Made by a program: the position numbers and the translations under genes. DNA of 64,000 nt from Flavobacterium sp. UMI-01 (lineage in GTDB: Bacteria; Bacteroidota; Bacteroidia; Flavobacteriales; Flavobacteriaceae): assembly GCF_019656315.1 (NCBI RefSeq), contig NZ_BPLU01000006.1:1-64000 (forward strand), in the 5' to 3' direction. Positions 41,888 to 61,528 of this stretch are shown one piece after another. The notes under the pieces were generated by a model. The model saw nothing but the letters and a program-made list of their open reading frames with translations, did not search any database and was not told the origin of the DNA. Each line of letters begins with the position of its first letter. Position 1 is the first letter of the stretch.

Positions 41888-41952
41888 TTGATATTCCAAA
41901 CTGGATAACCAGTTTGGAATACCAAATATAAATAATATTTTCTGTTCTACAA
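41888..41952 (-). promoter_or_regulatory. promoter and operator of the T9SS protein gene
   Basis: Operator units TTGA-N4-CCAA (41888-41899), CTGG-N4-CCAG (41901-41912) and TTGG-N4-CCAA (41914-41925) repeat every 13 bases. The last overlaps the minus-strand -7 box TATATTTG (41923-41930), and a -33 TTG lies at 41950-41952, exactly 19 bases away. Binding would block RNA polymerase. Confidence 0.75.
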
Positions 41953-42038
41953 TACACCACCCTTAAAAAATTAGTTTTCAAGTAGATAATTGCTCAAAAA
42001 ACAATCCAAATACTACATAAGTAGAGTCGATTCAGGTA

Positions 42039-44822
42039 TTAATTATTGATTACAAGTCGTTTTGTACCTACGATGTTATTTTTATCATTTACTATTTTCA
42101 CTAAGTAAATGCCTTTGCGTAAAGCACTAACATCCAAGGCATAGTGGTTGTTATTATAATTTTGAAGTTGTTTTTCTAATACTTGTTTACCGTCCATACT
42201 GTAAATCACGGCATGACTAGCATTAGTCAATACAGAAGCATATAAGTTCAAGGTATTTGAAACTGGATTAGGGTAGACCATAAAAACAGTATCCAATTTG
42301 TTCTTTGACACCGATAACGGAGTTGCTATACCATAAAATTCAATCTCTGAAATAGTCGTAAAACTCGATGTGTTATTTCCTTTTCCTGTAATTTTCACAT
42401 AACGTGTAAGATTAGAGAATTGATAGGTTGCAAAGGTCGTAGCTCCTGCAGCAGCACTCTGAATGGCTACTGGAGTGGTATAATTTGTTCCATCTGTCGA
42501 AAATTGAATATCATAAAAATACCATTTGGTAGAAGACCCCGTAGTAGCTAGTTTTATAGATTCTAATGTGTAAGTACTTCCTAAATCATAAATAATAATC
42601 CCTCCGTCAGCATTATCAGACCATCTGGTACTGGTGTCTTTATCCAACGTATTGGTTGCAATATTAGGTGATTGCGTTTTATCAGCAGACACCGTTACAG
42701 GCGCACCTGCTGCTCCTGAATTTATCAACACTGCTCCTGATGGAGCTCCTTGCTGTGTAATTGTTAAAGTGACTGGTGCCATGCCACTTCCGGTCACCGT
42801 AAGTGTTCCCGTTCTTGCGGAAGTAGAAGAATTTGCTGCTGCTGTAATGGAAATAGTTCCATTATTTACCCCTGAATTTGTATTGATGCTTAACCAAGTT
42901 GTATTATCTACACTTGCAGTCCAAGATACATTTGAGGTAACGGTTGTATTTTTTGTTTCTCCAGCTGAAACCAAATGGGCAACAGAAGACAATGACAATG
43001 TAGGCCCAACTTGTGTAATTGTCAGGGTCACTGGATCTATTCCTGCACCTGTAACAGTCAATAAACCTGTTCTACTCGCGCCTGAATTATTAGCTTTAGC
43101 GGTTACGGTAATCACACCATTGTTAGAACCAGAATTGGTATCAATACTTAACCAACTTGGACTATCAACACTAGCTGTCCAGGCTACGTTTGAAGTAACC
43201 GTGGTAGTTTTAGACTCACCTCCAATTGTATAACTGGCAATTGGCGATAAGGCGAGAGGAATATCTTCATAAGCCAAGGGCCCCACTGTTGCCTCTGTCA
43301 TGGGTCTATAACGTACAGAGCCTAAACTGTAATGATCCGCACCCGGGTTGCTTGGCTCCGGTCTGGTTTGTCCATCGGCATCTTCTGAAATGGAAATTGT
43401 TGACCCATTAGCATATAAAGGAGTACTAGCTGTAGATCTCCAGGTACCATCCGTATTATTATAAACTAAATTTGGATTTTCATTGGTAACCTGATTTGTA
43501 CTTGACAATGTAGTCACTGTTCCTCCACTAATCAATGTAGCCGTTCCAGTAGGATACATTAAATTATTAGACCAAGTGATGGCACTGCCTTGATCTTTAC
43601 CGTCCACAATTTTCACCAAACTATTTCGGTTACTTGTAACCAGGTTATTTGCGATGGTAATTTGGCTCACCGCTTTTGTGTAATTGTTATTATTTGTAAA
43701 CCCTATTTCAATCCCTTGGTCATTGTTTACCAATGTATTGTAAGCAATCACCACTCGTTCTGGTCTGTAATGTTTGGTCAAATCAGAACTTTGCCCTTCA
43801 ATGGCATCACCTTGTGTCAATGTAATGGGCGCATCCCATTTGGTTCCATTAAGTCCTTCAAAATAATTATTAATGATAACATGGTCAGTACCATAAATAC
43901 GCATTCCACCAGTATATAATGTAGCCCCATCAGGTGAAGTACTTATGGGCTTGTTATTGCCAAAGAAATAATTCCCCTCCGCTCTATTGCGATTCCCGTG
44001 TCTAAAAGACAATGTTCCATAACTCCCTTTAAATGTATTGTGACGAATGATATTATCACTTGATTTAACAGAAACAATTTCAGGATCACCATCACAATTT
44101 TCAAATAAATTGTATTCTACTGTTGTAAATCCACTGGATTTAGACATAGCACTCCAACCCACACGAATCGATTCTTGTTCGTTTACCGCTCTTGGGCTAT
44201 TGTCTTTAAAATGGTTATGATCGATAAGATCGTATTGCGACTGTACTTTAGAATTAGTCCCATCAACGGTGATGTAATGTCCTGGGGTATTTTTGTCTTT
44301 AAAAATATTATGGTCAATTCTATTGTGATGACTCAAAAATTGATATGGTTCAACAGTGTCATCCCAAACACCTCCTATAAAAACCCATTTAATCGAACTA
44401 GTGGTGGTCAACTTAAATGTATTACGAGTAACTCTAATATTATTACTTCCTTCTAACTTGACGATGGTACTATTTCCAGTACAATTAAAATTAAATCCTT
44501 CTAAGGTGATATAGGATGATTTTTTAAAAGAAAAATAAGAATCACCGGTAAAAGTCACACCTCCTACGGACTGAGGCTTAATGATAATCGGTTTGTCGCT
44601 AGTAGCGGTTGCTGAAGTGGTGGTTACTTTAAAACTGTTATACGTTCCATCTTTTATAATAAAAGTCCCCCCAGTGGTTGCTGCAGCATTTATCGCCGTT
44701 TGTAAGGTCGAAGCAGAAGTATAAAGTGTTTGGGCTTCGATAACATTTAAAAATAAAAGACTCACTAGCAATACCAACGTACGCAATATTTTGCCTTTAA
44801 AAAAAGTAATTTTTTTCATCAT
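42039..44822 (-). CDS. PL6 alginate lyase with BACON, CBM32-like and T9SS domains
   Basis: Beta-eliminating alginate lyase. From the ATG at 44822 the protein has 927 residues. It has a signal peptide (LVLLVSLLFLNVIEAQ) and a parallel beta-helix of the PL6/chondroitinase-B type (about 30-480), with the Lys in EIVSVKSSDNI (about 253) and Arg in LSFRHGNRNRAEG (about 274) that act in catalysis in this family. Two BACON modules follow (WTASVDSPSWLSI, WTASVDNTTWLSI; about 530-700), then an F5/8C (CBM32)-like module (about 710-840, STRWSDNADGG) and a sorting domain ending GIYLVKIVN. It is secreted by T9SS. A frame from a TTG at 44855 starts inside the operator and is rejected. Confidence 0.9.
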   Translation of the reverse strand: MMKKITFFKGKILRTLVLLVSLLFLNVIEAQTLYTSASTLQTAINAAATTGGTFIIKDGTYNSFKVTTTSATATSDKPIIIKPQSVGGVTFTGDSYFSFKKSSYITLEGFNFNCTGNSTIVKLEGSNNIRVTRNTFKLTTTSSIKWVFIGGVWDDTVEPYQFLSHHNRIDHNIFKDKNTPGHYITVDGTNSKVQSQYDLIDHNHFKDNSPRAVNEQESIRVGWSAMSKSSGFTTVEYNLFENCDGDPEIVSVKSSDNIIRHNTFKGSYGTLSFRHGNRNRAEGNYFFGNNKPISTSPDGATLYTGGMRIYGTDHVIINNYFEGLNGTKWDAPITLTQGDAIEGQSSDLTKHYRPERVVIAYNTLVNNDQGIEIGFTNNNNYTKAVSQITIANNLVTSNRNSLVKIVDGKDQGSAITWSNNLMYPTGTATLISGGTVTTLSSTNQVTNENPNLVYNNTDGTWRSTASTPLYANGSTISISEDADGQTRPEPSNPGADHYSLGSVRYRPMTEATVGPLAYEDIPLALSPIASYTIGGESKTTTVTSNVAWTASVDSPSWLSIDTNSGSNNGVITVTAKANNSGASRTGLLTVTGAGIDPVTLTITQVGPTLSLSSVAHLVSAGETKNTTVTSNVSWTASVDNTTWLSINTNSGVNNGTISITAAANSSTSARTGTLTVTGSGMAPVTLTITQQGAPSGAVLINSGAAGAPVTVSADKTQSPNIATNTLDKDTSTRWSDNADGGIIIYDLGSTYTLESIKLATTGSSTKWYFYDIQFSTDGTNYTTPVAIQSAAAGATTFATYQFSNLTRYVKITGKGNNTSSFTTISEIEFYGIATPLSVSKNKLDTVFMVYPNPVSNTLNLYASVLTNASHAVIYSMDGKQVLEKQLQNYNNNHYALDVSALRKGIYLVKIVNDKNNIVGTKRLVINN

Positions 44823-44847
44823 TAAATCATTTTGGTTAGTTAATTTA

Positions 44848-44890
44848 TTGGGCAACCATATTGGTTTTCCAATCTAAAAAACCAAATATA
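44848..44890 (-). promoter_or_regulatory. promoter and three-unit operator of the PL6 gene
   Basis: Three 12-bp units, TTGG-GCAA-CCAT (44848-44859), TTGG-TTTT-CCAA (44861-44872) and CTAA-AAAA-CCAA (44874-44885), repeat every 13 bases. The last overlaps the minus-strand -7 box TATATTTG (44883-44890). Confidence 0.75.
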
Positions 44891-44962
44891 AAAATAAAAA
44901 TGGTATTTAAAATACTTTATAACTTAAAAAAGCACTGGTAACGAACACGTTAAAGAAAAATA

Positions 44963-45003
44963 AAAAAATGCCCAACTGACATCATTGTCAATTGGGCATT
45001 TTA
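44963..45003 (-). terminator. terminator of the bicupin gene
   Basis: A stem AAATGCCCAA with its complement, extended by an inner TGACA/TGTCA pair, precedes seven T on the minus strand, about 78 bases after the stop codon. Confidence 0.8.
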
Positions 45004-46056: not shown

Positions 46057-46731
46057 TTAATTGGAACAAAACTCCACGAGCATTTTAAAATGATTTTCCA
46101 TACTGCGCACAGCTAGTTCTACATCTTGATTTTTTATAGCTTCGAATATAGCTTCATGTCTTTGAATTTCAGACAAATATTCTTCGTCATTACACACACG
46201 ATTATTTTCAAAAACCGATATTATTTTAGGTGTAATTTGCAACATCAATGCATTCATCGTCATGTTGCCACTGGCTCTTGTTATGGCAAGATGAAACAAC
46301 AAATCTTCTTGTAAAGCATCTTGTTTGTTTATCATTTTGTTTTTGAAATCATTCAATGCTTTTTCAATGGACTCCAAATCCTGTTCAGTTCTTCTTGCTG
46401 CGGCTAAACCAGCAGCTTTGGATTCCAACAATATTCGGGTTTCCACCAGCGATTTAAAATCCTGATCTCTCAATTTCAAAATATCTTCAATAATACCATT
46501 CAGCGCTGTTTGACCAATCGTTGCGATAAATGTTCCAGATTGCGGAATTGATTTTACCAACTCATAAAATTCAAGTTTTTTAATCGCCTCATTGATATTT
46601 CGCCTACTTACTTTAAATCTTTCAGACAATACCCTTTCCGAAGGCAACTTGTCGCCAGGTTCTAAATTTTTCTGAATGATTAAATCTCTAATTTTAGAGA
46701 TAATTAAATTTTGTATCTCGTAATTATCCAT
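46057..46731 (-). CDS. FadR-subfamily GntR regulator, paralogue 1 (altered recognition helix)
   Basis: The 224 residues have a winged HTH (about 5-75: KIRDLIIQKNLEPGDKLPSERVLSERFKVSRRNINEAIKKLEF) and an FCD ligand domain (about 85-220, helices with LLFHLAI, RHEAIFEAI and ENHFKML histidines that normally bind a metal). It is a clear paralogue of the regulator at 56529. The usual SRxxVREA helix reads SRRNINEA, so the arginine that in FadR contacts operator guanine is Asn47. It may bind a different site or work as a partner. No 13-bp operator was found at its own promoter. Confidence 0.85.
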   Translation of the reverse strand: MDNYEIQNLIISKIRDLIIQKNLEPGDKLPSERVLSERFKVSRRNINEAIKKLEFYELVKSIPQSGTFIATIGQTALNGIIEDILKLRDQDFKSLVETRILLESKAAGLAAARRTEQDLESIEKALNDFKNKMINKQDALQEDLLFHLAITRASGNMTMNALMLQITPKIISVFENNRVCNDEEYLSEIQRHEAIFEAIKNQDVELAVRSMENHFKMLVEFCSN

Positions 46732-46945: not shown

Positions 46946-48493
46946 TTAGTATCCTGTATTTTGTGGTAACAAATTAGGATTTCTTACAAGCTCGTTAGCA
47001 GGCAAAGGGAACAGATAATTTCTAGAAGCTAGATAACCTGCTTTGGTTCCTTCTAAACCAGAAGTACCAAATACATTATAAGGAGCTTCAGCCATTTTTC
47101 TTCTTGCAATATCGTACCATCTTGAAAACTCAAAAGCCAATTCCCATTTGCGATCTTCTAAAACAGTCATTCTAAAATTATCTTTTGATAATCCAGAAAC
47201 ATTCGCCGGAAATGCACTTGGTGTACTCCCCGCAGCACCTGCTCTAGCTCTAGCTCTGACACGATTCAACCAGGTTTCAGCATCTCCTGTTTGTCCTACT
47301 TCATTAGCTGCTTCAGCACCTATTAGTAATACTTCGGCATAACGCATCATCAAATAATTACTTTTAGTTGTTCTACCATTACCATCTGCTGCTGGACCTG
47401 CTTTACGGGTATATTTTGCAATATGAGGTCTGTTATCACCCGCCGCAAAATAGGTTGTAAAGGTTTGATAAGGCTGTCTTACACCTTTAAAAACTCCGGT
47501 GGCATCAAAGCTCACCGCTTTTCTGTAATCCAAATTATTCCAAGAATTATAAACATTTAATGAAGGCACTAATACAGACCAACCACCGCCATAACCGTAT
47601 TGCTCATCAGCTCTAATACCTGTAAATGCCGCCAAATAATCCCTTCCTTGATCGCCATCAGATGAACCAATAAAATCAATTACAAAAATGGGTTCTTTTG
47701 AAGCATCAACTTTTGAATAATCAAATAAGTTTTGGAAATCAGCCTCTAATCCTAGGTTGTAAATGGACTCTTTAGAAACGATATCTTTTACCTCGTCATA
47801 CGCTTTTTGATAATTAGCACTATCATATTGCCCCATTGTCAAGTAAACCGAAGCCAAGAAGGAACTTGCAGCCGACTTAGCTGGCAGTGCTCTGGACGTT
47901 TGTGTATTAGGCAACCATTCTTTAGCAAATTGCAAGTCGGCTATAATTTTAGCATATACTTCTGCAACAGGTGTTTTACCTATTTTACCCGCTGCTTGTA
48001 CATCAGTCACTGGAGCATCTAAATAAGGAATTGCACCAAATTGTCTCACTAAATGGAAATATACAAAAGCACGAACAAAGTAAGCTTGCGCCACTACTTT
48101 ATTCTTTTCAGCTGCATCCGCTTGCACATACGATGCCCCTGCTATAGCCTCATTTGCAGCACCAATGATTTGGTAACATTTTGGCCAATAAACTGCAATA
48201 TTCGCGTTATCTGCTTGCACATTAACATTACTAAACTGAACACGTTCAGGATTAGTAACATTTGGATTTAAATCAACCATATCACTCGCTAACATCAAGG
48301 ACATTGACAATTCTCTTGACATAAAATAGCGGTGGGTCATGTGTCCATAAGCTCCATTAATAGCCAACTGAACTTTATCTAAAGACGTAAAATACGTAGC
48401 AGGAGTTAACAATCCTACTGGTTTTTCTTCTAATTCTGAGCATCCCATAATTGAAAGTACAATCAATAGGGACAAATATTTAAATTTTTTCAT
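46946..48493 (-). CDS. SusD/RagB-family outer-membrane lipoprotein (alginate oligosaccharide binding)
   Basis: A surface lipoprotein that captures oligosaccharide over its SusC partner. The 515 residues have a lipobox (LLIVLSIMGCSELEEKP), the SusD N-terminal pattern LLTPATYFTSLDKVQLAINGAYGHM, the TPR-like AYFVRAFVYFHLVRQFGAIPYLDAPV, and the C-terminal RYAEVLLIGAEAANE with WLNRVRARAR and FPLPANELVRNPNLLPQN. It starts 23 bases after susC. The glycan is taken to be alginate from the neighbouring lyases. Confidence 0.93.
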   Translation of the reverse strand: MKKFKYLSLLIVLSIMGCSELEEKPVGLLTPATYFTSLDKVQLAINGAYGHMTHRYFMSRELSMSLMLASDMVDLNPNVTNPERVQFSNVNVQADNANIAVYWPKCYQIIGAANEAIAGASYVQADAAEKNKVVAQAYFVRAFVYFHLVRQFGAIPYLDAPVTDVQAAGKIGKTPVAEVYAKIIADLQFAKEWLPNTQTSRALPAKSAASSFLASVYLTMGQYDSANYQKAYDEVKDIVSKESIYNLGLEADFQNLFDYSKVDASKEPIFVIDFIGSSDGDQGRDYLAAFTGIRADEQYGYGGGWSVLVPSLNVYNSWNNLDYRKAVSFDATGVFKGVRQPYQTFTTYFAAGDNRPHIAKYTRKAGPAADGNGRTTKSNYLMMRYAEVLLIGAEAANEVGQTGDAETWLNRVRARARAGAAGSTPSAFPANVSGLSKDNFRMTVLEDRKWELAFEFSRWYDIARRKMAEAPYNVFGTSGLEGTKAGYLASRNYLFPLPANELVRNPNLLPQNTGY

Positions 48494-48516: not shown

Positions 48517-51500
48517 TTAAAACTTTAAACTAAGGCTAAAATTCACTGATCTAACTGTTGGGAAATTTCCAAAATCAAATCCTTTAGTGGTATTAGCAGT
48601 TCCTGTATTTCCTCCACCTGAACCAAAGTAACTTACTTCAGGGTCTAAGCCAGAATACTTAGTAAAAGTTAACAAATTTTGTGCGCTAATGGTAAATCTA
48701 AGACTCTCTACACCCAACCTATCAATTACAGTGGAAGGGAAATTATACCCTAATGCAATGTTTTTTAGTCGAATGTAACTTCCGTCCTCTACAAATCGAG
48801 ATGAAATTTCTCTTCTATCCGCTACTACACGAGGAATATCTGTGTTGGTATTGGTAGGCGTCCAAGCATTTAGCACCTCTTTAAGTGCATTTGAATTACC
48901 TCTATACAATTGTGCTTTTGTAAGATTAAAAACATCACCACCATAAGAACCTTGGAAAAAGATATTCAAATCAAAGTTTTTATAGGTGAAATTATTTGTA
49001 ATCCCCATGTTCCAATCTGGATTAGGGTCACCAATTAATTTTCGGTCTCCAGTAGTAATCACACCTGAACCATCTACATCCAAGAATAAAGGATCACCCG
49101 CTTGACGTGTTGCAGCGGCAGCCGTAGTAGCAGTTCCTGTAGGCAAAGTTCCTCCTTGATAAACCCCCATGTATTCTAATCCATAGAAAACACCAGCCGC
49201 TTCTCCTTCTCTCAAAATATGCGTTCCTGATTGATTACTGAAATAACCCGGTGCCGCATTTTGAATTACATCAATCCCTCCAATTAATTTTTTTACTTCA
49301 TTTTTATTTGTGGACCAATTGAAATCAGTTGTCCATCTAAAATTCTCATTGGTAATATTTCTGGTATTTAATGAAATTTCGAAACCTTTATTATTAATTT
49401 CTCCAATATTTCTAATACTTGCTAAGGTTACAAAACCTAAATATTCAGATTGACTTTGGTCAGCCAAAAGAAGGTCTTTTGTATCAATATTATAGTAATC
49501 TAACGAAAGAGATATTTTATTGTTTAGCAATCCTAAATCAATACCAAAATTGGTTTGATAAGAAGACTCCCATTTTAAATTGTCATTGGCAGCTTGATTA
49601 GGAACAACAGTTCCTACTACCTGATTATTAATACCGGTATAAACGGTGGTTAAACTTGCCAAAGATTGGTATGGAGAAATCGCTTGATTACCCGTTACAC
49701 CATAACTAGCTCTTACTTTTAAATTTGAAATCGTCTCGCTATCTTTTAAGAAATCTTCATTCGAAATTTTCCATCCCAAAGCACCTGATGGGAAAATCGC
49801 ATATTTATGATTTTTAGCAAAGTTGGACGCCCCGTCTCTTCTTAATGTAGCCGTTAAAAGGTATTTATCATTGTAATCATAATTTAATCTTCCAAATTGT
49901 GATTCAATTTCTTGCTCCGTGAATGAAGAGGTAGGCAACACTGTTACGGCACTACCCGCTAAATTATAGTATGAAAAACTATCATCAACAAATTTTTGAG
50001 CTCCAGCAGAAAATCGTTCTGAAGTTGTTTTTTGATAAGAGTAACCTGCTAATAAATTCAAAGTTCCTTTGCCTATTTCTTTGTTGTAGGTAAGGTAACT
50101 TTCACTCAATACATCCGTTTTCTTAAGATTAGAGATACTCGCTTTTCCTCCTGTACCTCTACCAGCGGTAACCAATAAGGTTGATGGTCTAAAAGTTCCG
50201 AAAGTTTCATTAGTTGTACTAAAACCAAACGTAGTTTTAAAAGTTAGGTTTTTGATAATGTCATAATTGGCATATAAATTCGATCTATTAATATCCGTTT
50301 TCGTGTTATTTACTGCTTCAGTAGCAATTGCATACGGATTATCTACCTCATCTCCAGTAGCATCTGTTGTATTCAAACCCGTAACAGGATCTTTGACACC
50401 AAAATCGGGTCTAAATCTAAACATTAACGAAATAACATCATCACCACCTCCGTTAGCTGTTAAACCTGTAGATTGTGTAGGCACTCCATTTTTAGTTCCT
50501 CGACTGCTGAAAAGATTAAAACCTAATTTTAATTTATCGGTCACTTGTGCGTCAATATTGGATAAAAAAGTTAATCTTTCAAAATCAGAGTTGATAACAA
50601 TACCCTCTTGTTTAAAATAATTTGCTGAGGCATAAAAATTAATTTTATCGCTTCCTCCAGAAAATGAAAATTGATGATTTTGTGTGCTACCCGTTCTATA
50701 TAATAAATCTTGCCAATCAGTATCTGCTGTTCCTGCAACAAAACTTGGATTGGTTATTTTTTTATACGCAATAAATTCTTCGGCGTTTAATAAATCAAGT
50801 CTGTTAGATGTATTTTGCAGTGAATAATTAGTATTCATTTCAACGGTTAATTTCCCAACTCTACCTTTTTTAGTCGTTACCATAACTACCCCGTTAGAAC
50901 CTCTAGAACCATAAATTGCGGTGGCAGATGCATCTTTTAAAACCTCAATCGATTGTATATCGCTTGCTTGTGGCATTGTTGCTCCCACAAAACCATCTAC
51001 AACAATTAGTGGATCACTCGCCGCATTGATAGAAGTATTCCCTCTTACTTTAATACTGATAGGTGCACCAGGCTCCCCACCATTATTAGACTGAACCACA
51101 ACACCAGCTGCACGGCCTTGTAGCGCTTGAGTAGCATCGGCTAATGGAAACGCATTTATTTCATCTGCTTTTACTGAAGACACTGCACCAGTAATATCAC
51201 TCTTTTTTCGAGCACCATACCCTACAATAACTACTTCTTCTAGTTGTTTTTCACTTTCCACCAATACTACGTTGAGTTTCTTTTGATTGGTAATTTTTAT
51301 AGATTGAGTAATATATCCTATATATGAAAACTGAAGTACATCTCCGCTTTTAACATTCAGTTTAAAATTCCCATCGAAATCAGTAGCGGTGCCATTCGTG
51401 GAATTAGCAACAATAATATTAGCACCAGGAATAGGCATTTTACTGCCATCTGATACTGTTCCGGATAATACATATCCCTCTTGAGCAAATAATGTGATAT

Positions 51501-52198: not shown

Positions 52199-52867
52199 TT
52201 ATTGTTTTAACTCTTTAATGATATCAATACATTCTTTTGTTAACGATTGAATTTTATTTAGGTCAAAATTACCATCTGATTCTGGCTTGATTAATTTAGA
52301 CCCCATACCTACGCATACTGCTCCAGCTTTAATCCATTCAGTCAAACTTTCTTTGGTAGGTGACACTCCACCTGTAGGCATAATCGTTGTCCAAGGTTGA
52401 GGCCCTTTAATACCATTGATAAAGGCCGGTCCATATAATTCACCAGGGAATAATTTAACTACTTCACAACCCATTTCTTCGGCTCTTGCAATTTCAGTCA
52501 AGGAACCACAACCTGGTGACCACATTACCTTACGACGGTTACACACAATTGCGATATCTTCTCTAAATACAGGCGTAACAATAAAGTTAGCCCCTAATTG
52601 CATGTACAAAGAAGCTGCCGCTGCATCTGTTACAGAACCAACTCCTAAAATCATTCCTGGAAGCTCAGCTACTGCATATTTCACTAAGGCTGCAAAAATT
52701 TCATGAGCAAAATCTCCTCTGCTAGTAAATTCTAGCAAACGAGCCCCTCCATCATAACAAGCCTTCAATACTTTTTTACTTACTTCTACATCTTTATGAT
52801 AAAACAACGGTACAAGACCTGTTTCTTTCATCACTTGTGCTACTTCTATTCTTGAAAATTGAGCCAT
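52199..52867 (-). CDS. eda: KDPG/KHG aldolase
   Basis: Splits 2-keto-3-deoxy-6-phosphogluconate to pyruvate and glyceraldehyde-3-phosphate, the last step of the alginate (and Entner-Doudoroff) route. The 222-residue class I aldolase has LVPLFYHKDVEVSKKVL, the catalytic Glu in LLEFTSRGDF, GVGSVTDAAAA, NFIVTPVF, and the Schiff-base Lys in EVVKLFPGELYGPAFINGIKGPQP, then MPTGGVSPT. It starts 11 bases after kdgK and ends at a strong terminator. Confidence 0.95.
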   Translation of the reverse strand: MAQFSRIEVAQVMKETGLVPLFYHKDVEVSKKVLKACYDGGARLLEFTSRGDFAHEIFAALVKYAVAELPGMILGVGSVTDAAAASLYMQLGANFIVTPVFREDIAIVCNRRKVMWSPGCGSLTEIARAEEMGCEVVKLFPGELYGPAFINGIKGPQPWTTIMPTGGVSPTKESLTEWIKAGAVCVGMGSKLIKPESDGNFDLNKIQSLTKECIDIIKELKQ

Positions 52868-52878
52868 ATTTTATTATT

Positions 52879-53901
52879 TTATCTTGAAACTTTTCCTGAA
52901 AAATCACCTGATAGCAATTTTTCAATTTCTGGTTTGGTTACTAAGTTATAATCTCCTGAGATGGTGTGTTTCAAACAGCAAGCCGCAACAGCAAAGTTTA
53001 AGGCTCTTTGATTATCCAATGGCTCTTCATTTAAACCATAAATCAATCCTCCCATAAAGGCATCCCCACTACCTACTCGATCCACTACTGGCGTTACCTC
53101 TTGAACGGCGGCATTGTATATTTTTTTACCATCATACATTACCCCACCAATTCTTTGATGAGAAGCACTTACTGAATAACGTAACGTAGTAGCTACGTAC
53201 TTCATTTCAGGGCATAATTGAAAAATCTTATCATATAAAGAAGGTAATATTTCTCCTTTTGTATAATCTGGATCTACTTTATCTAAACCTAACATAAAGT
53301 AAGCGGTATCTATATCACCTAAAATTACATTACTGTATTTAAGCATTTCTGGCATTACCTCTTTAGGTTGTTTTCCATAATTCCAAAGTTTAGCACGGTA
53401 ATTTAAATCGGTTGAGATTGTCAAACCCATTTCGTGCGCCACTTGAATGGCTTCCATACAAGCTTCAGCGGCGTTTTCAGAAAGTGCTGGCGTAATTCCA
53501 CTCCAGTGAAACCAAGTAGCGCCTTTAAGAACTTCTTTCCAATTGATTTCGCCTTTTTGCAATGTTGCCATAGAACTATTGGCTCTGTCATAGATAACAT
53601 TACTAGCTCGGGTACTTGTTCCTGTTTCTAAGAAATAAATTCCTAATCTATCTCCTCCAAACAAAACATTTTCGCAACCAACATCTAGTTTACGCATTTC
53701 TTTCAAAGCACTAATTCCCAATTCATTATTAGGGATTTTAGTTACATATTCAGCATTCATACCATAATTTACTAATGATACTGCTACATTGAATTCACCT
53801 CCACCATACGTAGCTTTGAACGATTCTGCTTGAGAAAAGCGCAAATGTCTTTCTGTTGACAAACGGAGTAAAATTTCACCAAAAGTGACTACTTTTTTCA
53901 T
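52879..53901 (-). CDS. kdgK: 2-keto-3-deoxygluconate kinase
   Basis: Phosphorylates KDG to KDPG with ATP. The 340-residue PfkB/ribokinase-family protein has GGGEFNVAVSLVNYGM near the start, STDLNYRAKLWN, and the late signature with catalytic Asp in DRVGSGDAFMGGLIYG. I use the ATG at 53901; a GTG at 53928 would add nine residues. It forms a two-gene operon with eda. No 13-bp operator is found upstream, and a terminator-like hairpin lies 58 bases before the start. Confidence 0.93.
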   Translation of the reverse strand: MKKVVTFGEILLRLSTERHLRFSQAESFKATYGGGEFNVAVSLVNYGMNAEYVTKIPNNELGISALKEMRKLDVGCENVLFGGDRLGIYFLETGTSTRASNVIYDRANSSMATLQKGEINWKEVLKGATWFHWSGITPALSENAAEACMEAIQVAHEMGLTISTDLNYRAKLWNYGKQPKEVMPEMLKYSNVILGDIDTAYFMLGLDKVDPDYTKGEILPSLYDKIFQLCPEMKYVATTLRYSVSASHQRIGGVMYDGKKIYNAAVQEVTPVVDRVGSGDAFMGGLIYGLNEEPLDNQRALNFAVAACCLKHTISGDYNLVTKPEIEKLLSGDFSGKVSR

Positions 53902-53952
53902 CTTATTTAATTCCAAATTGATTAACACTATTTTAGCTTAGCTAAATAAATA

Positions 53953-54272: not shown

Positions 54273-55037
54273 TTATATTCCTAAAGCTTGACCTCCACCA
54301 ATTTGGATTGTTTCAGCAGTTATGAATGAAGCATCGTTACTTACTAAGAAAGCAATTACACCCGCAACTTCTTCTGGCTCACCTAATCTACCTAATAAAA
54401 CACTGCTTTTCCAAGATGCAAAAACTTCAGGTTTTGTAGCTTTAATTTGAGCGTGGAAAGGCGTATCAATAGTACCTGGAGATACTGCATTAACTCTAAT
54501 TCCGTACTCAGCTAAATCTTTAGCCAAAGCTCTTGTGATGGATTGAACACCACCTTTAGATGTAGCATAAATACCTGCTCCTGGTCCTGCACCATTCCAT
54601 GCTGCATTTGAAGTATAGTTGATGATAGAAGCATTTTCACCTTTTTTAAGAAATGGTATAGCAGCTCTTGAAGCAAAGAATACTGAATCAAGATTCAAAG
54701 CCATAACAAATTTATATTCTGCAGTGGTCATTTCTTCAAATCTAGCTCTGATACCAATACCACCTGCATTGTTTACAAGAACATCAATTTTTCCGTATTT
54801 TTCACCAATTTTAGTAATATTAGCTGTTGTTTCTTCATCATTAGTAACATCAAATCCATAATATTCAGCTTTGATTCCTTCAGCAGCTAGTTCAGCAACG
54901 CGTTCAGCTCCTTTTTGATCTTCGATACCATTTAAGATTACGGTATATCCGTCTTTACCCAATCTTTGCGCTACAGCAAAACCTATTCCACCTGTGGCTC
55001 CAGTAATTACTGCAACTTTTTCATTTAAATTACCCAT
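54273..55037 (-). CDS. SDR oxidoreductase, likely DEH reductase
   Basis: A short-chain dehydrogenase of 254 residues: the cofactor motif TGATGGIG, NNAGG, the catalytic Ser/Tyr/Lys in NYTSNAAWNG and YATSKGG, and the end FITAETIQIGGGQALGI. In alginate loci the SDR reduces 4-deoxy-L-erythro-5-hexoseulose uronate (DEH) to KDG with NAD(P)H, and this gene lies 51 bases after the hexuronate-type MFS gene and upstream of kdgK. The exact substrate is inferred from context; glucose dehydrogenases look similar. Confidence 0.85.
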   Translation of the reverse strand: MGNLNEKVAVITGATGGIGFAVAQRLGKDGYTVILNGIEDQKGAERVAELAAEGIKAEYYGFDVTNDEETTANITKIGEKYGKIDVLVNNAGGIGIRARFEEMTTAEYKFVMALNLDSVFFASRAAIPFLKKGENASIINYTSNAAWNGAGPGAGIYATSKGGVQSITRALAKDLAEYGIRVNAVSPGTIDTPFHAQIKATKPEVFASWKSSVLLGRLGEPEEVAGVIAFLVSNDASFITAETIQIGGGQALGI

Positions 55038-55088: not shown

Positions 55089-56357
55089 TTATTTGATAAC
55101 TGGTTCTATTTTTCGAATAAAAAACATGATTGACAAAATTGTCAACGGTGCTAATACAGCTATAATGATAAACGCTGGGGTATAAGAAACCGTCGTAATT
55201 TGAGGAATTAACCAGTTCATTATAATTACTGAAAATGTCCCAATAGCACCAGCCAATCCAGCTAAAGTTCCTACAGAAGGCCCTTTGAATAAATCACTTG
55301 ATATGGTTTGTAAATTTCCAATAGCAAATTGAAAACCAAAAAGAACCAAAGAAACAATGTATATAAACGACATCGCATTGCTACCGTCAATCAAAAATAT
55401 GATTCCTAACAATCCCATTAATATCAGGGCACAACCAATACCTATCGTGATTTTTCTTGCCGCATCAACTGATTTTGTTTCAATTAATTTTCCACAATAC
55501 CAGCCACCAATTATACTACCAGCCATACCTCCTAGGTAAGAAATCCAAATAGTAGAACCAATTTCTTTTACACCAAATCCAAATTTATCGTGTAGATACA
55601 AAGGCATCCAACCCACAAACAACCACCAAATAGGCTCTATAAAGAAACTCCCCACAAGTACCCCCCAAGACTGTTTGAATTTTAAAATATTCATCACACT
55701 CAATCCTTTTTCTTTAGTAGGAGTACTATCAGTAGCTTTACTACTGGCAACAATTAGATTCAATTCCTCCTCAGTAATCCAAGGATGTTTGTCTGGAGTG
55801 GCTTTGTTAATAAACAACCACGGAATAACCCATAAAACACCCACAGCACCAATTATTATATAAGTCATTCTCCAACCAAATTGCGCATATAAAAACGCAA
55901 TTAACACTGGTGCAATTACACTTCCTAAAGAAGCTCCTGCATTAAAAATACCTTGAGCAATCGCTCTTTGCTTAATAGGAAACCATTCACCATTACTCTT
56001 TACAGCACCAGGCCAGTTTCCTGCTTCTCCTAACCCTAACAATCCTCTAAACAAAGTCAATGAGAATAATCCTTTGGCAAAAGCATGAAAAATAGACGCT
56101 ACAGACCACACTACAATGGATACTGTAAAACCCAATCGGGTACCGATAATATCATATAATTTACCCGACAAAAACTTACCCGCCGCATACGTAATCATAA
56201 AAATATTAAGCATGATAGCATAATCCGCCTCATCCATCCCCAAATCTTTTCCCATTTCGGGCCACATGATTCCAAAAGCAGTTCGATCAATATAATTAAT
56301 CACCGTTGCGAGACAGATTAACGTAATAATCCACCATCTTAAACCTTTTACTTTCAT
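55089..56357 (-). CDS. MFS transporter, hexuronate (ExuT-like) family
   Basis: An inner-membrane proton-linked carrier of 422 residues with 12 predicted helices. It has the ExuT/ACS-type landmarks WWIITLICLATVINYIDRTAFGIMWPEM, LFRGLLGLGEAGNWPGAVKSNGEWFP and AQGIFNAGASLGSVIAPVL. Anion:cation-symporter family members bring in uronates. In this locus it would carry DEH or unsaturated uronate from the periplasm to the cytoplasmic SDR encoded next to it. No alginate-type operator lies upstream. Confidence 0.9.
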   Translation of the reverse strand: MKVKGLRWWIITLICLATVINYIDRTAFGIMWPEMGKDLGMDEADYAIMLNIFMITYAAGKFLSGKLYDIIGTRLGFTVSIVVWSVASIFHAFAKGLFSLTLFRGLLGLGEAGNWPGAVKSNGEWFPIKQRAIAQGIFNAGASLGSVIAPVLIAFLYAQFGWRMTYIIIGAVGVLWVIPWLFINKATPDKHPWITEEELNLIVASSKATDSTPTKEKGLSVMNILKFKQSWGVLVGSFFIEPIWWLFVGWMPLYLHDKFGFGVKEIGSTIWISYLGGMAGSIIGGWYCGKLIETKSVDAARKITIGIGCALILMGLLGIIFLIDGSNAMSFIYIVSLVLFGFQFAIGNLQTISSDLFKGPSVGTLAGLAGAIGTFSVIIMNWLIPQITTVSYTPAFIIIAVLAPLTILSIMFFIRKIEPVIK

Positions 56358-56528: not shown

Positions 56529-57254
56529 TTACTCTTCTGTATTGTCTGAACTATTATAGCAATATTCATATAATGCTTTGAAATGTTCTTTCATTTTTTG
56601 TTTAGCCAATTGTGGATCCTGAGCAACAATCGCATTGTAAACTTCAGTATGTTCTTTAATTCTTTCTACACCTTCATTCCCATTTTTATCACACACATGG
56701 TATCTTTCAAAATTGGTCAAAATCTCAGGAGTGATAATCAACATCAAGTTGTTGATTGTGCTATTACCACTTGCTTTTGCAATAGCTAGATGAAATATCA
56801 AATCTTCTTGAACAGCATCTTCTCCTAAATTCACCTTAGCAGCATACGCATCTAATGCTTGCTTAATGTTTACCAAATCTTCTTCTGTTCTTCTAGTAGC
56901 AGCCAAACGAACTGTTTTTAATTCAATTAAAATTCTGGTTTCTACTAATGATTTAAAATCGGATGTTCCTAATCTCAAAATATCGTCTATTATGCCGTTG
57001 ATAGCTATTTTCCCAATATTAGCCACGAAAGTACCGCTTTGAGGTATTGATTTCAATATACCGTAAAACTCCAATTTCTGGATTGCTTCACGCACACTAC
57101 TTCTGCTCACTTCAAATTTTTCAGACAGCATACGCTCAGACGGAAGCTTGTCTTGTGGCTCTAAATTTTTATAGTTAATATAATCTCTAATCTTAGCTAT
57201 AATTGCATTTAGCGACTCTTTATTATCTTTTCTGGTAATTACTTCTAACTTCAT
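56529..57254 (-). CDS. FadR-subfamily GntR regulator, paralogue 2 (candidate alginate repressor)
   Basis: The 241 residues have a winged HTH (about 15-80) with the regular recognition helix SRSSVREAIQKLEF (Arg55 present) and an FCD domain (about 95-235) with the metal-site histidines LIFHLAI, KEHTEVYNAI and KEHFKAL. Its own promoter carries a unit CTGG-TTAA-CCAG and a half-degenerate second unit 13 bases away, so it is likely autoregulated. It is the best candidate for the protein that binds the operator found at the lyase and susCD promoters, with KDG or DEH as inducer. A GntR repressor of alginate genes (AusR) is known from Zobellia, as I recall. Confidence 0.85.
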   Translation of the reverse strand: MKLEVITRKDNKESLNAIIAKIRDYINYKNLEPQDKLPSERMLSEKFEVSRSSVREAIQKLEFYGILKSIPQSGTFVANIGKIAINGIIDDILRLGTSDFKSLVETRILIELKTVRLAATRRTEEDLVNIKQALDAYAAKVNLGEDAVQEDLIFHLAIAKASGNSTINNLMLIITPEILTNFERYHVCDKNGNEGVERIKEHTEVYNAIVAQDPQLAKQKMKEHFKALYEYCYNSSDNTEE

Positions 57255-57277: not shown

Positions 57278-57302
57278 CTGGTTAACCAGATTGGTTGATA
57301 AA
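57278..57302 (-). promoter_or_regulatory. operator of the GntR gene (paralogue 2)
   Basis: The unit CTGG-TTAA-CCAG (57278-57289) is followed at a 13-base period by TTGG-TTGA-TAAA (57291-57302), whose right half is degenerate. It starts 24 bases before the ATG. No standard -7 box overlaps it. Confidence 0.6.
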
Positions 57303-57366: not shown

Positions 57367-58233
57367 CTAATGAGTAACTTGTAAAGAATATATTTTTACC
57401 TTTGCAAAGGTCCCTGGTGTTTTAGATTGAAAATAATTCCCTGCTTTGAAATAATTTTCGAATATCCCCCATTTTTTCATGTGAATATCATCGTAAACCA
57501 ATGATTCTGTATCATTTAAAATCACTTCCATTCGCCCATCCGAAACTTTCACTTCTAGAGTAAACCTTGTGTTTAAATCGATTTTCTCTTTAAAATTTCG
57601 ACCTTCATCATCACCCCAAGCATGTTCTGAAAGCATTTCTTTATAAGGCGCGTTCAAATCTTTAAGTACTTTTGTTTTCACACGAATTTTTCCTTTATCC
57701 CAATACACTTTCAAAATAGGCGGTGCATTGTTGTCTTTTTGACCAATTAAATCACGTTGTTCATCCGTTAATACACCGTGAATTTGCGCAATAATAACGC
57801 GGCTGTATTTGCCATCTGGCTCTTTTGATATGTCGTCAATAGCATACGTACCTCTCATTTTACCGCCTTTTGCAAATGTCCAGTTGACCTTATTGCTACC
57901 AGTTTCCATTGTCTCTCTTAGCTCAGAACGAGAATAATGCGTATTAGCCGTGGTCACTCCCGAAGGAAAGGCATAAAAAACAACAGACTTGTCTTTTGGG
58001 TCATCGTACATGTACTTGGATGCGATTTTATCCTCAGCATAATTTAGTATTTCAGGATACCCTAAAGAGTATGGCTTACCTGGTTTATCTGGATTCTCCT
58101 CAGGCACAGTAACCGTCCAATGAGACCAATCAATTTTAGCAGTTTTGCTTTTTGATTTTTTATCCTGTGCATTACTAATTGTAGCAGTTGCTAGAACCGT
58201 TAGTAATAAGATTTTTGAAAATTGTATGTTCAT
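57367..58233 (-). CDS. PL7 alginate lyase
   Basis: An endolytic alginate lyase, beta-jelly-roll fold. The 288 residues have a signal peptide (LLLTVLATATISNAQ) and all three family motifs: RSELRE (102-107), QIH (150-152) and YFKAGNYFQ (261-269). QIH, rather than QVH, usually goes with activity on G-rich or mixed blocks. No carbohydrate-binding or sorting domain is present and no lipobox cysteine was seen, so a periplasmic or type-I-signal-exported enzyme is likely. Its promoter has the shared operator. Confidence 0.95.
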   Translation of the reverse strand: MNIQFSKILLLTVLATATISNAQDKKSKSKTAKIDWSHWTVTVPEENPDKPGKPYSLGYPEILNYAEDKIASKYMYDDPKDKSVVFYAFPSGVTTANTHYSRSELRETMETGSNKVNWTFAKGGKMRGTYAIDDISKEPDGKYSRVIIAQIHGVLTDEQRDLIGQKDNNAPPILKVYWDKGKIRVKTKVLKDLNAPYKEMLSEHAWGDDEGRNFKEKIDLNTRFTLEVKVSDGRMEVILNDTESLVYDDIHMKKWGIFENYFKAGNYFQSKTPGTFAKVKIYSLQVTH

Positions 58234-58294: not shown

Positions 58295-58324
58295 TTGGTA
58301 AACCAATTTGGAGAACCAAATATA
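58295..58324 (-). promoter_or_regulatory. promoter and operator of the PL7 gene
   Basis: Units TTGG-TAAA-CCAA (58295-58306) and TTGG-AGAA-CCAA (58308-58319) have a 13-base period and overlap the minus-strand -7 box TATATTTG (58317-58324). Confidence 0.8.
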
Positions 58325-58472
58325 GAAACTAATTTCAATTAAAAAAAGTAAAATGCCATTTATTTTATAAATCCAGGCTAAATAATCGTTAAATCCTACA
58401 TTTTATAGGGGCAACATGCTAAATTTTGAATTTTTTTTTAAAATAAAAGAACTGAAAATCAAAAATATACAT

Positions 58473-58513
58473 AAAAAAACCGCAACACATCATTTAAAAT
58501 GCATTGCGGTTTT
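58473..58513 (-). terminator. terminator of the PL17-kdgF operon
   Basis: A 10-bp stem (AAAACCGCAA / TTGCGGTTTT) with an inner partly paired loop, followed on the minus strand by a T-rich tract, 21 bases after the kdgF stop. Confidence 0.8.
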
Positions 58514-58534
58514 TAAAATCTATTTATAAAACTA

Positions 58535-58894
58535 CTAGTAGTGTTCTTTATTCATAAAATCTTCACGAATTGGACTAAAAACATCTATCAAAACTCCATC
58601 AGCTAAACATACAGCTCCATGTAATACGTGAGGCGGAATATAAAAACAATCTCCTCCTTTTAATACTTTTTTGTCATCACCAATGGTTACTTCAAATTCG
58701 CCACTTACTACATAAGTTACTTGTGCATGGTAGTGCTCATGTAAAGGTCCAATACTTCCTTTTTTAAAATCAACGTTCACAAGCATGATAGTATCATCAT
58801 AACCCATGATTTTACGTTTTACACCATCACCTACCACTTCCCATTCCATTTCGTCTCCGATTAAAAACTCTTTACTTGCTCCAAAACTTTGCAT
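58535..58894 (-). CDS. kdgF: KdgF-type cupin (unsaturated uronate linearisation)
   Basis: A 119-residue single-domain cupin with the metal-binding set HEHYHAQVTYVVSGEFEV (His, His, Gln) and PPHVLHGAVCLADG (His). KdgF proteins convert 4,5-unsaturated monouronates, released by oligo-alginate or pectate lyases, to the linear ketoaldose DEH/DKI. No signal peptide is visible, so it should be cytoplasmic. It lies 10 bases after the PL17 gene in one operon, which fits this step. Confidence 0.88.
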   Translation of the reverse strand: MQSFGASKEFLIGDEMEWEVVGDGVKRKIMGYDDTIMLVNVDFKKGSIGPLHEHYHAQVTYVVSGEFEVTIGDDKKVLKGGDCFYIPPHVLHGAVCLADGVLIDVFSPIREDFMNKEHY

Positions 58895-58904
58895 AACGAT
58901 CTAT

Positions 58905-61169
58905 TTATTTAATTAATGTATTATAATGTACTCCTACCCATGAGTAGGTTTTTCCTTTTATTTCTAAAGTATGTTTTTGTGTTGCCGAATTATTCGAAGT
59001 GGACAAAACAAACAATGCCTTCACACCTTCTTTATTTTGTACGGATACCCCAACATAATTAGCATCCTCATATACTAGTTCCAAATTTGTAATCGCACTA
59101 AAAGCATTAACTGCATTTTCTGTAACAGGACTATAACTACCATGTGTTTCAATTGCGTTTACAAATGTGGCTTTTTGACTGTTCTTTTTTCGAATGATTA
59201 ACCCCGCATCTCTACGCAAATTAAAATTGGGGTCATTTGCTCCTAATCGCACTAACAACAACTCATCATTTGCCTGAGTCGCCGAGGTCAATGTATAAAA
59301 ACTACCATTATGCAACCAAGAAAATTTGGTATTTGCCTCCGTAGCTTTCCCTGCTCCTTCTTTCCATAAATGCTGGTACCCATTCGCTTTACCCAATGAT
59401 TCTAGCGTAGCAGGAGTATCATATTTAAAATTTGTAGTCATTATTTGCCCAAAGTAATAAAAAGGCAAATCATATTGATTAGCTGATTTAGAATCCAATT
59501 GAAAAATATCCAATAAAATTGGTTTTTCAAAACCTTCAGTTTCCCATAAAACCATCGTACGATGCATTTGGGTTCCTGGATAAGCATTGCCTTCTGTAGC
59601 ACTTATCAATTGAACTTTGGGATTGGCTACATCATAACAATATTTTTTAGATGAAAATTGATTTCCTGTTTCAAAATCACCTTTAAAATGTGAGGTTTCA
59701 TTCTGCACAATGGTATTATGTGCGATGGTTTGTTTGGCCCAAGTAGCATTTTCTTTTAAATAATTTCCCCCTCCTTTTTGTTCAATATTAACAAATCGTG
59801 CCAAACCATAATCTTGCAGAATCTCATCCCCATTATTGTAATAGGAAAAAGATAGTTTATCAAAATGTCCGTGACTGGAACCTTGGGAAGCGTATTTCAT
59901 TACCAAACTCAATTCGCTATTTTTCACTTTATTACGAATAATAGCCACACCCCCTTGTTCTCCATCGGGTCCGTCAGATAAATTGATTGATTTTTTAACA
60001 AATGGTTTTGCTAATTTGTTTTTGATACCCAAAGCGACCGCCATTCCTGAATTATCTAATTGAACACGTCCTTGTTTTTCAGCTATAGACAACAATGAAG
60101 CATCTTTTCCGCCATACAAATAAGCGATATCAACAGCAGAAACTAATTCTCTTGAATAATAAGACATCCCTTTTTGACCGTCATTCAGCGGGAAAAACTC
60201 TCCCTCCGCATTCGTAAGATTCAATAAAGCATAAACGGCTTTAATTAAGATTCCGTTCTTATATTCAAATATTTTTAATTCTGGCTTCGTATTTTGTAAA
60301 GCTTCAGCAAAAACCATAAAGGGATACATGGCATATCTTTGGTAATATGGCCCTTCATTATAATAACCATCAGGTGAAAAAGGCTCATCGACATTAGCTA
60401 AAAACCCTGTTTTTTGACCTTCTTTTTTAATCAAGCCACCATCATTATCTTTCATTCCTGGCGTCAAACCGTCTTCTTTTAAACCGTTCATTGCACGATC
60501 TAATAATTCTGCATCGTCCATCACCAAAGCAATCATTCCCACTGCAACATTCCCCCAAGTACTGTGATTATGCACTCTATTGAAATATTGTGGAGAACCT
60601 ATCGAAATAAAATCGGCAAAAGGCTTAAACAAATCTTTTTCGATGATGGCACGGTCTTTTGCACCAATAAAATCATACACACAATCGTAAGCCTGACTCA
60701 TATACACTAACCAATTGGCATCATTTAATGCCTGCCAAAACAATTTACCACGAGCATAAGAACGCTCTTGCGGATGCAAAGGCAAAGTAGGATATAATTT
60801 TGTATAAGCCATAAGCATTTCCTTAACATAATTTCCGTACTTTTTATCCCCTGTAATCTGAAACAAGGCACCTGCTTTTTGAGCAATCAAGAAATTCTTT
60901 TTATGACGTTCATGAGTATAACCTCCTGAAAAATCTTTAGGTAATGGCACATCAATCTTTAAAAGCATTTCGGCATCCACTTCTTTTTTTACCTCAACCA
61001 ATGAAGCATCAAACAAAGGCACTTTTCCCAACTGACTTCTGATTTCCTGAACCCCTTTTTTAGTCATGATTAGTCTTGGATGCCCTTGAGCAAGGACACT
61101 TTGCCCCATCACTAGAACCATCGCTAATACTATAATGGCAAATGCTTTTGTTTTATAAAAATATATCAT
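58905..61169 (-). CDS. PL17 oligoalginate lyase (exolytic), periplasmic
   Basis: The 754 residues have a signal peptide (AIIVLAMVLVMGQSVLAQ), then an (alpha/alpha) toroid (about 30-350) with the catalytic pair Asn201-His202 in FNRVHNHSTWGN and a Tyr-rich DGYYNEGPYYQRYA (about 267-280). A heparinase II/III-like beta-sheet C-terminal half (about 390-750) follows, with QGSSHGHFDKLSFSYYNNG. This is the layout of PL17 enzymes, which release unsaturated uronate from oligomer ends. It is the first gene of an operon with kdgF, and the promoter carries the shared operator. Confidence 0.93.
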   Translation of the reverse strand: MIYFYKTKAFAIIVLAMVLVMGQSVLAQGHPRLIMTKKGVQEIRSQLGKVPLFDASLVEVKKEVDAEMLLKIDVPLPKDFSGGYTHERHKKNFLIAQKAGALFQITGDKKYGNYVKEMLMAYTKLYPTLPLHPQERSYARGKLFWQALNDANWLVYMSQAYDCVYDFIGAKDRAIIEKDLFKPFADFISIGSPQYFNRVHNHSTWGNVAVGMIALVMDDAELLDRAMNGLKEDGLTPGMKDNDGGLIKKEGQKTGFLANVDEPFSPDGYYNEGPYYQRYAMYPFMVFAEALQNTKPELKIFEYKNGILIKAVYALLNLTNAEGEFFPLNDGQKGMSYYSRELVSAVDIAYLYGGKDASLLSIAEKQGRVQLDNSGMAVALGIKNKLAKPFVKKSINLSDGPDGEQGGVAIIRNKVKNSELSLVMKYASQGSSHGHFDKLSFSYYNNGDEILQDYGLARFVNIEQKGGGNYLKENATWAKQTIAHNTIVQNETSHFKGDFETGNQFSSKKYCYDVANPKVQLISATEGNAYPGTQMHRTMVLWETEGFEKPILLDIFQLDSKSANQYDLPFYYFGQIMTTNFKYDTPATLESLGKANGYQHLWKEGAGKATEANTKFSWLHNGSFYTLTSATQANDELLLVRLGANDPNFNLRRDAGLIIRKKNSQKATFVNAIETHGSYSPVTENAVNAFSAITNLELVYEDANYVGVSVQNKEGVKALFVLSTSNNSATQKHTLEIKGKTYSWVGVHYNTLIK

Positions 61170-61528
61170 ATTCTAGGCTATTTCTGCTAATTAATCAAAC
61201 TGGTTTTCCAATTTGGTTTTCCAAATATATCGTTTATTTTACAATTGAAAAATAAAAGTAACTATTTTAGCATTATTTAATACAAATTCTAAAAAAATTC
61301 TGATAATTGATAAAGATTTTTTAATATAAACAATAAAATTTTAGAAACAACCTAAAAACGAATGTGTTATTTACATAACTTTACTCCTTTTGACAAAGAC
61401 AATTAACCGCACAAGGTGCATTTTTAGGAATGCTCTTAATTTTATACTCTATACCAAAATTACTTCCTATATGCCAACTGATTATCGTTTTCTAACAAAG
61501 TGTGACATCCAAAATTTAGTTCGCAACT
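61170..61528. other. divergent spacer between the PL17 and DUF1800 genes
   Basis: About 360 AT-rich bases. The left part has the PL17 operator and promoter (61200-61229). On the plus side no clear TAnnTTTG box is found before the DUF1800 start, and no coding frame or RNA was seen. Confidence 0.55.
61200..61229 (-). promoter_or_regulatory. promoter and operator of the PL17-kdgF operon
   Basis: Units CTGG-TTTT-CCAA (61200-61211) and TTGG-TTTT-CCAA (61213-61224) have a 13-base period and overlap the minus-strand -7 box TATATTTG (61222-61229). Confidence 0.8.

Follow-up and report, generated by a model that had tools for sequence, protein, structure and literature searches.

The stretch of DNA analyzed here (the window) comprises positions 1-64000 of contig C6 in the 4.02-Mb, 76-contig genome of Flavobacterium sp. 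UMI-01, and its alginate genes are preceded by tandem copies of a 12-bp palindromic unit, YTGG-N4-CCAR, repeated with a 13-bp step. We consider it highly probable (about 0.9), from the sequence comparisons given below, that the alginate repressor AusR, which belongs to the FadR-type GntR proteins and is here the product of the gene at 56529-57254, uses these sites as its operators. The operators and the promoter -7 boxes that adjoin them are as follows. The scores are from a 30-position matrix trained only on 63 distinct sites of relatives and applied, with a cut-off of 8, to the window plus 15 loci (14 from this genome, 1 from genome G002); no score of at least 4 was obtained in 20 mononucleotide-shuffled windows.

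41888-41925, minus strand: triple operator before the gene of a protein sorted by the type IX secretion system (T9SS); units at 41888 (one mismatch), 41901 and 41914; score 40.0 for 41901-41930
41923-41930, minus strand: -7 box TATATTTG, with TTG common to the box and the proximal unit
44848-44885, minus strand: lower-quality triple operator before the PL6 lyase gene; units at 44848 (one mismatch), 44861 (exact) and 44874 (two mismatches); score 15.6 for 44861-44890
44883-44890, minus strand: -7 box TATATTTG
51676-51700, minus strand: double operator before susCD; score 36.1
51698-51705, minus strand: -7 box TACATTTG
57278-57302, minus strand: weak operator before the GntR2 gene; one exact unit, then one with two mismatches; score 8.5
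58295-58319, minus strand: double operator before the PL7 gene; score 33.7
58317-58324, minus strand: -7 box TATATTTG
61200-61224, minus strand: double operator before PL17-kdgF; score 43.4
61222-61229, minus strand: -7 box TATATTTG

The 25-base tandem pattern YTGG-N4-CCAR-N-YTGG-N4-CCAR was sought exactly or with up to two mismatches, using 100 dinucleotide shuffles as the null for the window and the pattern read backwards as the control for the genome. The window contained 8 matches, compared with a mean of 0.15 in the shuffles (largest 2), and the six operators with a 13-bp period reported in the preliminary description were all recovered in place. Both units are exact in the pairs 41901/41914, 51676/51689, 58295/58308 and 61200/61213. 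A scan of the whole genome, which the preliminary description had proposed as a check, gave 24 matches with up to two mismatches, compared with 6 for the backwards pattern (overlapping matches inside triples counted separately). Seven sites were exact (C6 41901, 51676, 58295, 61200 and 115048; C19 315528; C72 411), and four of these fall in the window. When the spacing between exact units was left free from 0 to 30 bases, the genome yielded the seven step-13 sites and one pair with a step of 24.

The genes of this part of the window, together with a third regulator copy on another contig, are listed below. KDPG, KDG and DEH denote 2-keto-3-deoxy-6-phosphogluconate, 2-keto-3-deoxygluconate and 4-deoxy-L-erythro-5-hexoseulose uronate.

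40615-41853, minus strand: 412-aa protein with a T9SS sorting domain (Pfam PF18962)
42039-44855, minus strand: PL6-type (chondroitinase B family) lyase with a T9SS domain (Pfam PF14592)
46057-46731, minus strand: GntR1, FadR-type paralogue with an altered recognition helix, VSRRNINEAIKKLE
46946-48493, minus strand: SusD
48517-51546, minus strand: SusC (TonB-dependent receptor)
52199-52867, minus strand: KDPG aldolase (FlAld), without an operator of its own
52879-53928, minus strand: KDG kinase (FlKin), without an operator of its own
54273-55037, minus strand: short-chain dehydrogenase/reductase (SDR), DEH reductase (FlRed), without an operator of its own
55089-56357, minus strand: major facilitator superfamily (MFS) sugar permease
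56529-57254, minus strand: GntR2, putative AusR orthologue and probable binder
57367-58233, minus strand: PL7 alginate lyase (FlAlyA)
58535-58894, minus strand: KdgF-like cupin
58905-61169, minus strand: PL17 oligoalginate lyase (FlAlyB)
L107:11745-12470: GntR3, in the second alginate gene row

Each operator lies upstream of the gene assigned to it in the preliminary description, which for the PL6 gene requires a start at ATG 44822; the sequence makes this likelier than the listed TTG 44855. By its domains, the gene order in the window is that of the published UMI-01 alginolytic cluster, given in passages of PMC4306948 as FlAlyB (PL17), KdgF, FlAlyA (PL7), a GntR-like protein, a permease, FlRed, KDG kinase, KDPG aldolase, SusC, SusD and a GntR-like protein. 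The same passages predict two operons with promoters P1 and P2 of the -33/-7 consensus. The operators suggest that FlAlyA, the GntR gene and susC each have a further promoter of their own. In the published map, P2 is a separate promoter from which the KDG kinase and aldolase genes may be transcribed.

The spacing of the units was analyzed in 79 loci of relatives (1.52 Mb) from many flavobacterial genera. The loci surround GntR1 homologues from the best 80 matches, found via two peptide patterns of which one requires N or R at the position equivalent to R49 of FadR; since they share descent, counts among them are not independent events. The loci hold 388 exact units, compared with 47, 69 and 12 for three control palindromes, and every locus holds at least one. 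Exact units up to 60 bp apart formed pairs at 13 bp (118 pairs in 66 of the 79 loci) and at 26 bp (28 pairs in 27 loci) and at no other step, and the three control palindromes formed no pairs in the 79 loci. Runs with 60 nucleotides on either side numbered 269 (180 single, 61 double and 28 triple). Next to the 180 single units, a degenerate partner with one or two mismatches occurred 31 times at -13 and 6 times at +13, and at most 8 times at any other offset from 7 to 40. The linker base is A or T in 116 of 117 cases, in loci that are 65% A+T. The commonest form of the unit is TTGGT-N2-ACCAA, with T in 71% at position 5 and A in 79% at position 8, two bases that the definition of the unit does not fix.

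A third unit with at most one mismatch was present in 42 of the 88 composite arrays of the relatives, and a fourth in 1. The nearest recognized gene within 1500 nucleotides behind the arrays was susC-like in 60 cases, a lyase in 15 (one of them 1325 nucleotides off), a regulator in 6, a permease in 4 and susD-like in 1, which together make 86 of the 88; one remaining array has a T9SS protein almost 1 kb off, and one has nothing. The arrays before susC-like genes (L016-L094) often lie 180 to 330 bases from the start of the match, which is a long leader.

We also found that operator and promoter are fused. The overlap of the proximal unit with the -7 box, which had been claimed for five operators, is exact (TTTGG/TAnnTTTG) at five of the six, with the boxes ending at 41930, 44890, 51705, 58324 and 61229 on the minus strand; no in-register -7 box was found at the 57278 operator. 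In the loci of the relatives, TAnnT stands directly before the outer TTGG in 86 of 89 tandem arrays, compared with 5 of 180 single exact units. Counted from the -7 box, the units of the tandem arrays start at 5, 18 and 31 bases (88, 90 and 31 cases), and any other offset has at most 3 cases. A TTG lies 18 to 20 bases upstream of the TA in 41 of 87 arrays, exactly 19 in 31, compared with at most 7 cases for each other single distance in the range 5 to 49; the 18-20 base spacing is close to the published flavobacterial promoter consensus. Four Zobellia loci carry the fused -7 box with a three-unit 13-bp array (exact, exact, one mismatch). Since passages of PMC9723704 map TAnnTTTG to -12 to -5 in F. 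psychrophilum, the units would lie at about -7 to +5, +7 to +18 and +20 to +31, and bound dimers would thus cover the -7 box and the start site.

The distribution of the element was compared with that of the regulator in 60 genomes of the family, one per genus. AusR was scored as present (AusR+) when a GntR2 homologue was found at E <= 1e-30 and otherwise as absent (AusR-), and the composite was defined as TANNTTTGG-N4-CCAR-N-YTGG-N4-CCAR with 0 mismatches. An AusR homologue was found in 13 of the 60 genomes, and the exact composite in all 13 of these and in 0 of the 47 AusR- genomes; the composite read backwards occurred in 0 of 60. Such a split would arise by chance about 2 times in 10^13 if the genomes were independent, an independence that is incomplete. 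With free spacing, among the 98 places listed (each counted once for both strands), the AusR+ genomes had 54 pairs at 13, 6 at 26 and 6 at other steps, compared with 0, 0 and 32 in the AusR- genomes. Pairs at steps of 24 and 39 were considered as a second spacing and rejected: 8 of the 12 listed step-24 places and 5 of the 6 listed step-39 places are in AusR- genomes, and similar stretches recur across genomes, as would be expected of coding DNA. The regulator is present in a single copy in 11 of the 13 AusR+ genomes, in two copies in G002, where an array lies about 45 bases upstream of the gene of the second copy, and in three in UMI-01. No AusR homologue at E <= 1e-30 was found in 24 congeners or in 15 further genomes of the order, and these therefore offered no orthologue of GntR1 for comparison. 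Among the Flavobacterium loci, however, L035, L044, L046 and L079 hold a homologue, so that its presence is patchy. The split of 13 of 13 and 0 of 47, together with the genes of the type found in polysaccharide utilization loci (PULs) near 86 of 88 arrays, gives good support to the earlier proposal of an alginate-gene operator that covers the start site and is bound by a FadR-type GntR protein.

The three close AusR-type copies in the UMI-01 genome, GntR1, GntR2 and GntR3, each combine PF00392 and PF07729 (winged helix and FCD), which places them in the FadR subfamily of GntR. GntR2 is 63% identical to three Zobellia homologues and 69 to 81% identical to five other relatives, and its recognition helix is closely similar to those of the homologues compared. 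By sequence identity to Zobellia loci other than that of Z. galactanivorans, GntR2 thus appears orthologous to the Zobellia AusR. The recognition helices read VSRSSVREAIQKLEFYG in GntR2 (with small changes in the 79 relatives), VSRRNINEAIKKLE in GntR1 and VSRRSIHAAILKLE in GntR3. In the FadR contact table, R35 and R45 read G and R49 is a backbone contact. In an alignment matched to FadR, the three copies and 79 of 79 relatives all have Arg at the R35 and R45 equivalents. At the R49 equivalent, Arg is found in GntR2 and again in 79 of 79 relatives (17 of which lack the N/R peptide pattern), but GntR1 has N and GntR3 has H. Because this Arg is kept in GntR2 and its relatives and not in the two paralogues, GntR2 is the likeliest of the three to bind, and we regard it as the probable binder of the operators. 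The preliminary description had named both GntR proteins of the window as candidates; a regulator of the FadR type is supported, but the two are not equal, the protein at 56529-57254 being the likelier. Reading the Arg loss in GntR1 and GntR3 as a loss of base recognition was dropped, since R49 is listed as a backbone contact in FadR; binding by these two proteins may be weaker or different. The GntR1 gene directly follows susCD, and its product could act on GntR2 as a modulating partner.

It is unlikely that the sites are bound wholly or partly by GntR1 (46057-46731) or GntR3, with GntR2 as a minor or heterodimer partner. The existence of three close copies, the position of GntR1 behind the operator-bearing susCD genes and of GntR3 in the gene row behind the C72:411 operator, and the Arg residues at the R35 and R45 equivalents of both proteins would allow it; however, the exact element is found in every AusR+ genome, including the 11 with a single copy, and the R49-equivalent Arg is missing from exactly these two paralogues. 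Protein geometry is likewise a far better account of the 13-bp step than recent copying of a tandem repeat, which we consider very improbable. Slippage easily yields tandem repeats, and some triples do have near-identical units, but units of one array differ from each other at the N4 positions and at Y/R, and the 88 arrays comprise 69 distinct sequences. TGG, CCA and the step, by contrast, stay constant across many genera, and pairs at 12 or 14 bp are absent from the 79 loci.

The palindromes might, at extremely long odds, belong to promoter architecture, as an element that a sigma factor or a global regulator reads at strong PUL promoters, rather than being an alginate-specific operator. Such an element would suit the overlap of the proximal unit with the -7 box, the many arrays with the usual -33 TTG and the susC-like genes behind 60 of the 88 arrays. 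The AusR- genomes of the family use the same -7 box, yet the exact composite is absent from all 47. Units two and three of an array, moreover, fall downstream of the point where transcription is inferred to start, at positions that sigma factors are not known to contact in this way.

With GntR2 as the probable AusR, the matrix extends its candidate regulon beyond the window. The preliminary description had counted six promoters; all six operators stand, but the count is too low, since five more strong sites lie elsewhere in the genome: C6:115043 (43.9), C19:315523 (37.6), C72:157844 (26.1), C72:406 (24.5) and C37:23073 (17.3). The genes at the C6:115043 site are those of a PL6 lyase and, divergently oriented, of an RraA-like protein. 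The C72:406 site precedes the PL7 lyase gene that heads the row PL7, 6-phosphogluconate dehydrogenase-like, PL6, SusC, SusD, GntR3, SDR and MFS (C72:1-15347, L107), and the C37:23073 site precedes a PF05426 alginate lyase gene. The C72:157844 site belongs to a heparinase II/III-type gene whose listed open reading frame starts before the array, so that the true start must lie further in. At C19:315523-317567 (L096), a strong operator is followed by the gene of a BD-FAE-type esterase, with its ATG 11 bases behind the array, and then by that of a T9SS-sorted protein. This esterase/T9SS pair is no obvious set of alginate genes. The second alginate gene row lies behind one exact operator, on a different contig from the published cluster.

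Looser tandem matches (one or two mismatches, matrix score below 8) were found before susC genes at C10:40388 and C19:244952 and before a PL7-like gene at C26:69021; since the backwards control gave 6 matches in the genome, some looser matches are due to chance. The genome has 12 candidate alginate lyase genes (5 PL7, 4 PL6 and 3 PF05426, the last being what was left of 10 PF05426 matches after exclusion of the seven weak ones at C37:557078-611109). For 7 of the 12 a matrix-level site was found, either at the gene's own promoter or where its gene row begins.

The C6:115043 site bears on published expression data. The alginate lyases of UMI-01 and five of its enzymes of 4-deoxy-L-erythro-5-hexoseulose uronic acid (DEHU) metabolism rise on alginate. 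According to passages of PMC8563752 (2021), FlDet protein was detected on alginate only, its regulation was called unclear, and fldet, fldeg and flalex were said to need study. The RraA-like protein encoded on the same contig has 237 residues and starts with the 19 residues published for FlDet. The exact operator C6:115043-115072 lies between fldet (minus strand) and flalex (plus strand), in L095:8283-11488 (C6:114282-117487). Its -7 box faces flalex, and the ATG of fldet is about 50 bases from the array; two 7-of-8 matches to a -7 box that may serve fldet flank the array, TATATTTA between array and fldet and TATCTTTA beyond. No matrix site was found for fldeg in the stretch examined. The fldet/flalex array may explain the strict alginate dependence of FlDet. 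Over five genes, array strength correlates with control in agreement with published blots, strong arrays going with tight control and weak or no arrays with basal expression. In Flagellimonas flava (L073) an array likewise stands between an RraA homologue and a PL7 gene; of the three loci that hold such a homologue, the remaining two lack an array within 400 bases of where it starts.

These observations suggest how AusR might act. Each 12-bp unit would bind one AusR dimer. Since the two or three units with their fixed 13-bp step start inside the -7 box, dimers sitting on them would occupy this box along with the start site and so prevent transcription. An intermediate of alginate breakdown, for instance KDG or DEH, would then free the DNA of AusR. 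The quality of the array would set the tightness of control, strong before the lyase and susCD genes and weak before the repressor gene. We infer binding in this strain, the steric block, cooperation between dimers, the graded tightness and the identity of the effector. An arrangement in which neighbouring dimers touch at a set angle would fit the exclusive 13-bp step. Tentatively, at a little less than even odds, AusR-type repressors may stack two or three dimers into a rigid spiral through direct contacts that need no N-terminal extension of the NanR kind; by the arithmetic of 13 bp of B-DNA, each dimer would be turned by about 86 degrees and shifted by 44 angstroms relative to the next. The dimer nearest the promoter, with its centre close to the start site, would read part of the -7 box as a half-site, so that promoter and operator could not evolve apart, and the fldet-flalex array would make the oxidative DEHU pathway strictly alginate-dependent.

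Several observations weigh against the assignment of these sites to an alginate repressor encoded by GntR2. GntR1 and GntR3 might recognize these sites too, or altered versions of them. A one-mismatch composite is present in 2 of the 47 AusR- genomes (G008 and G032). Judged by the control palindromes, some single exact units must be background, and 175 of the 180 do not adjoin a -7 box, so that a lone unit is weak evidence. Two of the 12 candidate lyase genes have only a looser operator, and no operator was found in the stretches examined for three (C66:118207, C37:100293 and C6:82055). These three are candidates for unrepressed, basal lyases; passages of PMC8286568 describe AlyA7 of Zobellia as such a basal 'sentry' lyase. 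By the matrix, the FlRed, FlKin, FlAld and FlDeg genes have no operator of their own, though they are alginate-induced according to passages of PMC8563752; FlRed, FlKin and FlAld lie behind the weak 57278 site.

The sites can be compared with those of known FadR-type regulators. Passages of PMC4494728 describe the FadR-subfamily sites of UxuR and GntR as TKGT/ACMA boxes with a 2-nucleotide gap between GT and AC, and the survey's table lists no FadR-subfamily regulator from the Bacteroidetes. The form TTGGT-N2-ACCAA fits this description, gap included; unlike the UxuR and GntR sites, the units here are mostly in tandem at 13 bp and fused to the flavobacterial -7 box. NanR of E. coli is a FadR-type repressor as well. 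According to passages of PMC8012715, three NanR dimers bind the (GGTATA)3 operator cooperatively via a 32-residue N-terminal extension. A short operator repeated with strict spacing is common to the two systems, and several dimers are proposed here too; but full palindromes are repeated here, unlike the direct repeats of TGGTATA-like half-sites in NanR. Residue 21 of GntR2 aligns with residue 39 of NanR, which leaves GntR2 with about 18 fewer N-terminal residues; without most of a NanR-like extension, its contacts, if present, must differ from those of NanR.

The closest system is that of Zobellia, where the AusR alginate regulon was reportedly described by Dudek et al. in 2020 (NAR 48:7786). 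In passages of papers that cite this work (PMC7874173, PMC8286568 and PMC8073546), AusR of Z. galactanivorans is a GntR-family repressor in the alginate PUL that binds promoters via single, double or triple operator copies, targets most alginate-utilization genes and is released by metabolites. A 13-bp step is not stated in the available parts of the literature citing the AusR work, and the original description may contain this step or the -7 fusion. As in Zobellia, a GntR regulator is encoded among the alginate genes, and double and triple operators stand at alginate promoters both here and in relatives; unlike Zobellia, UMI-01 has three regulator copies, a second alginate PUL and the fldet-flalex site. 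The repressor type and the alginate system are already known from Zobellia. What is added here is the strict spacing rule, the fusion with the -7 box, the extra targets and the naming of one probable regulator among three copies. Together these amount to a precise sequence rule, open to testing, for the control of alginate genes in Flavobacteriaceae, add a second alginate PUL as well as several single genes to the candidate UMI-01 regulon, and offer a candidate answer to the question of FlDet regulation raised in passages of PMC8563752.

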